Positions 4,519-31,903 of a DNA stretch of 64,000 nucleotides are shown in pieces. The DNA is taken from contig NZ_LQBO01000001.1 in NCBI RefSeq assembly GCF_001507555.1, positions 2,418,001-2,482,000 of the forward strand, written 5' to 3'. The stretch's first letter is position 1. Every line of letters starts with the position of its first letter. This DNA comes from Thiomicrospira sp. XS5 (GTDB lineage: Bacteria > Pseudomonadota > Gammaproteobacteria > Thiomicrospirales > Thiomicrospiraceae). The notes beneath the pieces were generated by a model. The model was not told where the DNA came from and did no database searches. It worked only from the letters and a program-made list of their open reading frames with translations. The position numbers were made by a program, and so were the translations under genes.

Positions 4519-5940
<1,422 letters not shown>

Positions 5941-5982
5941 AAATGATTTTGACTCGCTTTAACCCCAGCCCATGTTTTTCCA

Positions 5983-6009
5983 ATAGCCTTCTTTCCGCAA
6001 GGAGGCTAT
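5983..6009 (+). promoter_or_regulatory. Hairpin masking the mreC Shine-Dalgarno
   Basis: An 11-bp stem (ATAGCCTTCTT with AAGGAGGCTAT, one G-U pair) closes on loop TCCGC. The 3' arm contains the whole AAGGAGG (5999-6005) that must serve mreC. The structure starts 43 bases after the mreB stop, so mreB ribosomes would not open it. No U-run follows, so it is not an intrinsic terminator. I infer a translational brake on mreC. Confidence 0.65.
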
Positions 6010-6010
6010 C

Positions 6011-6850
6011 ATCAACCTGAGTTCCACCTCCCCCCAAAAAGAAGGCACCCAATTCGTCGCCTTTTTCATTCTCTGCATCGCTTTGATGGTCATGGATCAT
6101 TACAGCCACCTGCTGTCAAATTTTCGCAATCTGCTCTTAACCACCATTGAGCCGATTGAGCGAACGGCCACCTTGCCGCTCGACATCTACAACTGGATGC
6201 AAAAAGATTACACCACCATTAACCAATTACGTTTGCAAAACCAACAACTGCAAACGGAAAACCTACTGCTCAAAGCCCAACAACAGCAAATGGCCAAGCT
6301 CAAACTGGAGATCGACCGCTTGAACCGTTTGCTCGGCACAGCCAGCCAACTGGACGCCTCAAAAATCCAAATCGCCACAGTCACGGCTTATAGCCAAACG
6401 CCTTATGCGCAGTTCTACACGCTGAATAAAGGGGCACTGGATGAGGTCGATATTAATCAGACCGTTATTGACGCCAAGGGGCTGATCGGTCTGATCACTC
6501 ACCTAACCCCCACTTCCAGCCGAGCGCAACTGATCACCGACCCGGACATTCAAGTGCCGGTGCGCATTCAACGCACCGGGCAACGCGGCATTCTCAGTGG
6601 CCTGGGGCACGACCGGCTGTCATTAATGTTTATCCCAAATTCCAGTTCGGTACAGAAAGGCGACCTGCTGGAAACCTCAGGCCTGGGCAATATCTTTCCA
6701 GAAGGCTACCCCGTTGCGAAAATTTCCAAAGTCAGTGATCTGAAAGACCAGCCTTATTACGAAATCGCCGCCGAGCCCATGGCCGACCTAAACCGATCTC
6801 AAAAGGTCCTGATCCTGTCGAACCAGATTGGAGAAATCGATGTCCGATAA
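6011..6850 (+). CDS. mreC: Rod-shape-determining protein MreC, apparent non-AUG start
   Basis: About 279 residues if translation begins at ATC 6011, five bases after AAGGAGG. Between the in-frame stop at 5984 and the TTG/ATG at 6083-6088 there is no ATG, GTG or TTG. Starting at 6083 would delete the single N-terminal membrane helix (QFVAFFILCIALMVMDHY), which MreC needs. ATC 6008 and CTG 6017 are alternatives. The rest is standard: a coiled coil at about residues 55-100, rich in Gln and Leu, then the beta-domain ending in LILSNQ. MreC bridges MreB to PBP2 in the periplasm. Its end overlaps mreD by 11 bases. Confidence 0.88.
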   Translation: MNLSSTSPQKEGTQFVAFFILCIALMVMDHYSHLLSNFRNLLLTTIEPIERTATLPLDIYNWMQKDYTTINQLRLQNQQLQTENLLLKAQQQQMAKLKLEIDRLNRLLGTASQLDASKIQIATVTAYSQTPYAQFYTLNKGALDEVDINQTVIDAKGLIGLITHLTPTSSRAQLITDPDIQVPVRIQRTGQRGILSGLGHDRLSLMFIPNSSSVQKGDLLETSGLGNIFPEGYPVAKISKVSDLKDQPYYEIAAEPMADLNRSQKVLILSNQIGEIDVR

Positions 6851-7343
6851 AGTTTTTTCGCTTCGGGTCTCCGACATCAAATGGCTTCTGTTATTCAGTT
6901 ACTTACTGAGCATGGTGTTGGATAACATGATGATTTTAAGTTTTAACATCAACTTCATCCCTTATCTGACCGTGTTAATGCTGTTATTCTGGACCACGCA
7001 GATCCTCGATAAAACGCATTTGCTGTCGGCTTTTTTGCTCGGCCTGATCTTTGATGCTTCACTCAACACCCCACTGGGGTCGCACAGCTTAATTTTCATC
7101 ACATTGACGTTTTTAATGCTGCGCTCCCGATTGCGATTCAAAGGCTATCCGCTCTGGCAACAATCCTTAATCATCGGCACCTATATCGGGTTATTCCAAG
7201 TCATGAACTGGTTCCTGTTTCACCCGGTTCTCGTTGGGCATGATCTCTTCTATTTCTGGGCCGAGCCGCTTATTGCCGCACTGGTTTGGCCGTTTTTCTC
7301 AACGGTTATGCAACGTTTGACGCAACGATTTGTATTCAGCTAA
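6840..7343 (+). CDS. mreD: Rod-shape-determining protein MreD
   Basis: 167 residues from ATG 6840 (MSDKVFSLRV). The frame opens slightly earlier, but this start fits the family and overlaps the end of mreC by 11 bases, suggesting coupling. MreD is a small polytopic inner-membrane protein of the elongasome. Five or six hydrophobic helices are visible, with little soluble sequence. It is followed after 5 bases by mrdA. Confidence 0.94.
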   Translation: MSDKVFSLRVSDIKWLLLFSYLLSMVLDNMMILSFNINFIPYLTVLMLLFWTTQILDKTHLLSAFLLGLIFDASLNTPLGSHSLIFITLTFLMLRSRLRFKGYPLWQQSLIIGTYIGLFQVMNWFLFHPVLVGHDLFYFWAEPLIAALVWPFFSTVMQRLTQRFVFS

Positions 7344-31345: not shown

Positions 31346-31903
31346 TTATTTTTTAACGGGCGCAACCATCATTTGCAGTTGACGGCCTTCCATTTTCGGC
31401 ATTTGCTCAACGGTGGCGATTTCTTGAATGTCATCGCGCACACGTTCCAGCATTCGCATGCCCAGCTCTTTATGGGTAATTTCGCGCCCGCGGAACCAGA
31501 TGGTGACCTTCACTCGGTCGCCTTTTTCCAGGAATTTCGTCAGGTTGCGCATTTTCACCTGATAATCCCCTTCTTCTGTTCCAGGGCGGAATTTTACTTC
31601 CTTGACCTGAACCTGCTTTTGTTTTTTCTTAGCTTCGTGCTTTTTCTTTTGCTGTTGATAGACGTATTTACCATAGTCCATGATACGGCAAACCGGCGGA
31701 TTCGATTTTGCGGAAATTTCCACCAAATCCATCTCCGAATCTCGTGCCGCTTCTAAAGCCTCTTCAATTGAGACGACACCTTTCTGCTCTCCATCCGCAT
31801 CAATTAAGCGAACTTCTTTTGCCGTAATTCTGTCGTTAATGTTGTCTTTAGGCGCTTCTGGTTGCTGCGGCCTACCACGACCTCTTCTAACTGCGATAGC
31901 AAT
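31346..31903 (-). CDS. infC: Translation initiation factor IF-3 with ATT start
   Basis: 185 residues when read from ATT at 31903, preceded by GAGGAG. No ATG, GTG or TTG in frame gives the conserved N-terminal domain ([18 protein letters not shown]); the first ATG at 31732 would lose 57 residues. An AUU start is the known autoregulatory device of infC in E. coli: IF3 discriminates against it. The C-terminal domain has the [11 protein letters not shown] and FRGRE segments that bind the 30S platform. It follows thrS by 29 bases. Confidence 0.95.

Follow-up and report, generated by a model that had tools for sequence, protein, structure and literature searches.

The mreB-mreC-mreD locus of Thiomicrospira sp. 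XS5 raises the question of where ribosomes begin to translate mreC and what keeps its output in step with that of its neighbours. Within the window, by which we mean the whole 64,000-nucleotide stretch of DNA that was analysed, the three genes share the forward strand. Both mreB (4894-5940; PF06723, E = 4e-142) and mreD (6840-7343; PF04093, E = 5e-13) have ordinary ATG starts, and the coding region between them, whose 3' end is overlapped by mreD, carries the PF04085 domain (E = 2e-40) that marks it as a member of the MreC family. The mreC frame is open from 5987, preceded by a TAG at 5984-5986, and the first canonical codons in it are TTG 6083, ATG 6086 and ATG 6092, all within the membrane helix. 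An initial annotation had stated that no ATG, GTG or TTG precedes the helix and that the Shine-Dalgarno sequence (SD) of mreC is buried in an 11-bp hairpin, and both statements are borne out: the earliest such codon is TTG 6083, and the SD (AAGGAGG, 5999-6005) lies in the 3' arm of a hairpin at 5983-6009 (arms 5983-5993 and 5999-6009). The same annotation let translation begin at ATC 6011, ATC 6008 or CTG 6017, and of these only the first is conserved; the closest relative (G014) has ACC at 6008, and the codon at 6017 varies widely between relatives. An Rfam search returned nothing beyond two sub-threshold snoRNA matches, and 3 promoter-like sites were found where 4.8 were expected.

Comparison within the family strongly supports ATC 6011-6013, located 5 nt downstream of the SD, as the start codon of mreC, with a predicted product of 279 amino acids plus stop (6011-6850). 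Relatives of mreC were matched in 60 of 62 family genomes (G033 and G036 gave no match) and, after exclusion of G034, in which the frame is broken by two stops, 59 mreB-mreC junctions were read, comprising 4 from the genus coded g2 and 55 from outside it (g1 is the code of the window's own genus, and g2 to g7 are the other genus codes in the family). All 55 loci outside g2 have ATT (26) or ATC (29) at the aligned start, 5-9 nt past an SD, six of them having been realigned by one codon by eye; ATG replaces this codon in none of the 55. The four g2 genomes encode an mreC with ATG and, by our scan, no SD. When the six realigned loci are omitted, the A and the T of the start codon each carry 2.0 bits in the remaining 49, and coding periodicity sets in at this codon: information at codon positions 1, 2 and 3 is 1.16, 1.37 and 0.35 downstream and 0.22, 0.30 and 0.24 upstream, where nothing but the SD and the CC at -2 and -1 is conspicuous. 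A loose third position behind two tight ones downstream of the codon, together with an SD in front of it, indicates a start rather than an inner isoleucine. No canonical codon occurs between 8 codons before and 6 codons after the start in 49 of the 55 loci, and if the interval is widened to run from the upstream stop as far as the helix, 31 of the 55 still have none. The other 24 have some canonical codon in this interval, in 18 cases 11-12 codons into mreC (15 ATG, 3 GTG), and in these loci a minor second start is possible.

The flanking genes served as controls. A canonical start was found for mreD in 55/55 family loci and for mreB in 57/58, the exception being an alignment one base off-register beside an ATG. 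As a positive control the window contains infC, encoding IF3 (31346-31897, minus strand; PF00707/PF05198), which begins with ATC at 31897-31895 preceded by GAGGAG. Of the 30 family infC loci that were read, 29 have this ATC where E. coli has ATT; the thirtieth was mis-anchored by the search pattern, and its translation also has IAVRRG. We had considered pcnB as a further AUU control and rejected it, since it has an N-terminal ATG in all 30 family loci. The method can thus recover an established AUC start, and it does not report such a start for every gene.

Automatic annotation would place the start of mreC at a canonical codon inside the helix (TTG 6083, ATG 6086 or ATG 6092) and treat the sequence upstream as an untranslated leader. 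These are the earliest canonical codons available, and a methionine directly before the conserved aspartate is common among relatives. However, such a start would cut the membrane helix, the stretch downstream of 6011 is under protein-type constraint, and an SD of at least four letters accompanies 54 of the 55 ATH starts in the family but just 5 of the 141 internal canonical codons there, and just 14 of 109 such codons in the class set described below. We therefore regard an in-helix start as highly improbable.

The use of AUU, AUC or AUA (AUH) as the mreC start extends well beyond the family. We assembled a class set of Gammaproteobacteria with one genome per family (one exception), in which 86 of 94 genomes were matched; removal of G000 and G053, which represent the window's own family, of a contig-end fragment (G093) and of a weak match (G090) left 82 mreC loci, and motif analyses were run on 80 after L178 (contig end) and L135 (N-terminal anchor missing) had been set aside. 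No canonical codon is found at least 3 residues ahead of the helix in 37 of the 82 loci, and in 35 of these an AUH codon stands before a Lys-x-Leu-Phe-like motif. The remaining two are L202, which has an ATG 2 residues ahead of the helix and was relabelled canonical, and L205, in which the start is ambiguous. A fixed form of the motif pattern matched 55 of the 80 loci, with ATT (14), ATC (14) or ATA (10) as its first codon in 38 of them, and otherwise ATG (5), GTG (1), TTG (1) or other codons (10); among the last, L140, L145 and L180 prove to be ATH once the register is corrected, and in several loci an ATG or GTG lies 1-2 codons upstream. The 10 ATA codons among 38 motif starts compare with 98 among 946 internal isoleucine codons of the motif genes (p = 0.006), and an SD accompanies 33 of the 38 ATH motif starts as against 61 of 444 internal isoleucine codons and none of the 7 canonical motif starts. 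For mreB, a canonical start is present in 58 of the 59 class loci that could be tested. In all, 41 of 80 sampled gammaproteobacterial families have an AUU, AUC or AUA start of mreC, with labels assigned partly by hand. A run across the phylum matched 86 of 100 genomes, and from it we read another 17 mreC loci of Gammaproteobacteria as well as 32 from other classes (20 family codes). A canonical start is missing from 4 of the 17, and visual inspection gave another 4 in which the motif begins with AUH but a chance canonical codon lies upstream of it, whereas an mreC without a canonical start was found in 0 of the 32 loci outside the class. Since the MreC tree is weak (20 start changes, of which only 4 are forced by supported branches), we do not claim AUH as the ancestral state. 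Cytosine is favoured just before the AUH codon in the class loci, occurring at -2 in 23/38 and at -1 in 25/38.

Gene finders miss AUH starts because they accept only ATG, GTG and TTG, and if our assignment is correct many MreC entries in databases are missing the cytoplasmic tail as well as a portion of the membrane helix. This apparently includes the protein of Pseudomonas aeruginosa. The mreC genes of two Pseudomonas loci (L212 and L213) begin AGGAGccggtcATC AAA CCG, and an alignment of the L213 product with the P. aeruginosa chain 6zlv shows 12 differences in 176 residues by our count. The DNA of L213 gave no match among E. coli genomes. In the structural report, the crystal construct is numbered 97-258, Pro114/Phe115, Arg175, Glu188 and Arg190 are named, and the first 14 residues are said to comprise cytoplasmic residues and the membrane region (PMC8137920). 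With an offset of 16 the residues named there correspond to P, F, R, E and R in L213 and, assuming N-termini of equal length, published residue 1 corresponds to residue 17 of L213, a GTG codon that lies in the membrane helix. Judged by this numbering, the published start of P. aeruginosa MreC is probably internal.

Within the class, the kind of start codon goes together with the strength of the SD. Taking the best SD among the candidate codons in both groups, with AUH labels assigned partly by hand and L135, L178, L201 and L205 excluded here as well as from the tree and the test for relatedness, we find an SD at 42 of 49 AUH starts and at 10 of 46 canonical starts (p = 2e-10, a value that ignores kinship). 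At mreB of the same loci there is no such excess (6/22 in the AUH group and 11/29 in the canonical group). When relatedness is taken into account, the 4 supported independent pairs, of which on average 2.4 behave as expected and 0.1 against expectation, give p about 0.5, a test that has no power. It may be that within the class initiation on mreC is kept down by combining either a weak start codon with a strong SD or a strong codon with a weak SD. Canonical mreC starts outside the class have an SD in 18 of 32 loci, so a low rate of MreC synthesis is not required everywhere.

In the window the SD is folded away. Positions 5983-5993 pair with 5999-6009 through 11 pairs, one of them U.G, around a loop at 5994-5998. 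The fold of a 151-nt region has z = -2.61, with no equally stable structure among 200 shuffles, and the piece from the mreB stop to the mreC start alone folds more weakly (z = -1.95; 9 of 200 shuffles). Opening the SD would cost 13.7 kcal/mol, compared with a mean of 8.4 when the leader upstream of the SD is shuffled and the rest is held fixed (p about 0.01). Inclusion of more coding sequence shifts the predicted minimum free energy fold, so that 6038-6046 becomes the partner of 5986-5994, and CCUCC at 6027-6031 that of the SD core (6001-6005); the SD is mostly paired in both folds (probability of being unpaired 0.29). These early mreC codons, as alternative partners of the hairpin 5' arm and of the SD, might form a switch. 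The median cost of opening the SD is 9.7 kcal/mol in g1, 6.5 in g4 (4 genomes), 3.5 in g5 and 2.4 in g6. Leaders long enough for the shuffling test were available in 10 of 11 g1 species, 21 of 29 g5, all 9 g6 and one g7 (those of g3, g4 and the g1 species G013 are too short), and by the upstream-leader shuffle the masking exceeds chance at the 0.05 level in 7 of the 10 g1 species (combined p = 2e-6) and in 0/21 g5, 0/9 g6 and 0/1 g7. The three g1 species that do not pass (G006, G009 and G011) nevertheless possess the small open reading frame described below.

A single hairpin common to g1 can be rejected, as the stems differ by species. G000, G014 and G005 share a short-loop hairpin in which 9 inner pairs are kept, with one double change across the three species, while G007, G008 and G012 have a 10-bp long-range stem with 2 double changes, a number reached in 43 of 500 shuffles. 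The initial annotation had spoken of two brakes on mreC, and each of them does exceed chance, although they prove to be layers of different reach, the AUH codon being class-wide and the mask found only in g1. Relatives with an ordinary ATG and without the hairpin had been named there as evidence against its reading, and the outcome is mixed: none of the 55 genomes outside g2 has the ATG, g2 does have it, and the hairpin is absent from most of the relatives that could be tested. The G+C-rich stem, lying between two genes of one operon, might alternatively attenuate transcription or be a site of RNA processing, instead of masking the SD from ribosomes. This we consider very unlikely: no run of T follows the stem, a scan for terminators did not report this hairpin and, although the stems of the various species differ, the SD forms one arm in each. 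A stem-loop between mreB and mreC has also been noted in Cupriavidus (PMC13192273).

The earlier account of the mreC leader overlooked a small open reading frame (ORF) that links mreB to mreC. In the window this ORF (5943-6020, 25 codons) has its ATG 2 nt past the mreB stop, passes through the hairpin and ends at a TGA (6018-6020) just within mreC, in a different frame. An ATG ORF of 13-25 codons bridging mreB to the mreC start is present in 10 of the 11 g1 species, which are related to one another, under a rule that was set post hoc after some cases had been seen and that requires at least 10 codons and an end that falls in the interval from 15 nt upstream to 10 nt downstream of the first mreC nucleotide. 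Shuffling of the leaders gives a chance expectation for g1 of 1.3 at this length and of 2.1 at a minimum of 4 codons. Outside g1, ORFs of at least 10 codons occur in 2 of 29 g5 loci (1.6 expected) and 0 of 9 g6 loci, and those of at least 4 codons in 4 of 29 (2.8 expected) and 3 of 9 (0.6 expected), respectively. In G000, G014, G005, G010 and G011 the ORF begins 1-2 nt past the mreB stop and its own stop overlaps the mreC start or falls immediately within it, with the overlap reading ATTAA in G005, G010 and G011; the peptides of these five species are for the most part dissimilar. In G007, G008 and G012 it begins 28-34 nt after mreB and ends 13-15 nt ahead of mreC. With one species taken from each of the G000, G005, G010, G006 and G007 groups, the product of the chance values is about 2e-5. 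The peptides are unlike between species groups, which excludes a conserved leader peptide and suggests that it is the act of translating the ORF that matters and not its product. G013 (locus L018) is the only g1 species with a very short gap between mreB and mreC (22 nt from the mreB stop to the ATC); it keeps the ATC, and the bridging ORF is absent.

From the sequence comparisons we think it probable that the AUH start keeps MreC low and that in g1 the stem is opened by ribosomes that pass from mreB through the bridging ORF. AUC 6011, read with formyl-methionine, would give a protein beginning MNLSSTSPQKEG... ahead of a complete membrane helix. Because AUU, AUC and AUA are poor starts that are disfavoured by IF3, initiation of MreC should be rare per mRNA, and the good SD would stop it from dropping to zero. 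In g1 the SD is folded away and a small ORF spans the distance from behind the mreB stop to the mreC start or its vicinity; most likely, ribosomes that have finished mreB translate this relay ORF, unfold the stem and pass to the AUC start, and such a relay would make MreC a small and fixed share of MreB. The initial annotation had likewise suggested that the MreB:MreC ratio might be set at translation, perhaps tuned by IF3 levels or growth rate. MreC is an activator of the PBP2-RodA wall synthase, and the likely purpose of the arrangement would be to match its amount to that of its partners. MreB is a far more plentiful protein than MreC. In E. coli, overproduction of MreC makes cells shorter and wider, which MreD partly relieves, and that study judges balanced expression to be important and puts MreC at about twice MreD (PMC7793260); "scarce" MreC need not, then, be scarcer than MreD.

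It is quite possible, if short of probable, that ribosomes bind the SD of the AUC start directly as the stem breathes, with the ORF unused and mreC uncoupled from mreB. Outside g1 the ORF is mostly absent and yet the SD and the AUH codon are present, and within g1 the ORF peptides share no sequence; against this, 10 of 11 g1 species have the ORF where 1.3-2.1 would be expected, and the SD is masked in 7 of 10. A different objection concerns the codon itself. If little MreC is needed, a poor start would cost little, and AUH could be tolerated drift in which IF3 is not sensed. Some lineages have a canonical start without an SD, which is consistent with a low rate alone being what matters, but ATH is retained in 55 of 55 family genomes without a switch to ATG, a single base away, and we find drift a rather doubtful explanation. 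A more far-reaching version of our own reading is equally tentative, namely that mreC belongs to a class-wide set of genes controlled by IF3, that AUG lineages gave up the SD and so held the rate down, and that the relay ORF of g1 locks MreC to MreB. Were mreC part of such a set, a fall in free IF3 relative to ribosomes would lead to more MreC, and wall elongation would read the state of translation.

The AUU and AUC starts known so far are those of infC and a handful of other genes. Certain bacterial genes reportedly prefer non-AUG starts, according to a preprint. A literature search on mreC and start codons gave no non-AUG mreC start among the matches listed, from a coverage with mostly no subscription journals, which agrees with the initial annotation in its view that the arrangement had not been described. 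IF3 is reported to repress non-canonical starts such as the AUU of infC and the GTC of Streptomyces sigR (PMC5472188), and another source gives infC and pcnB as the sole E. coli genes with an AUU start (PMC9410913). The start of infC (AUU or AUC, subject to autoregulation by IF3) resembles that of mreC in the kind of codon and in SD spacing, and is ATC in this window too, but infC regulates itself, whereas mreC is a cell-wall gene without a known link to IF3. The AUU of E. coli pcnB, as the start of mreC would, limits a protein other than a translation factor; pcnB differs in having ATG in the window's family, while the AUH of mreC is class-wide. Streptomyces sigR offers a parallel in which a non-canonical start sets the ratio between partners, GTC repression by IF3 keeping SigR below RsrA. 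The codon there is GTC and not ATH, however, the case is reported for Streptomyces, and the available text mentions neither a masked SD nor a bridging ORF.

The presence of AUH in a rod-shape gene of about half of the sampled families would make such starts a stable device, and would make two questions testable, whether wall elongation is tied to IF3 and whether MreC output is tied to the translation of MreB. Translational coupling is well known from polycistronic mRNAs, in which ribosomes on the upstream gene unfold a stem that covers the following SD. Compared with the usual coupling and SD-masking stems, mreC differs in having a bridging small ORF, an AUH codon as the target, and stems and ORFs that vary by species. 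In three species the long SD-masking stem encloses both the 14-codon ORF and an inner hairpin (TTAAATC/GATTTAA) (L016, 1403-1491; L017, 1398-1494; L015, 2311-2407 on the minus strand).
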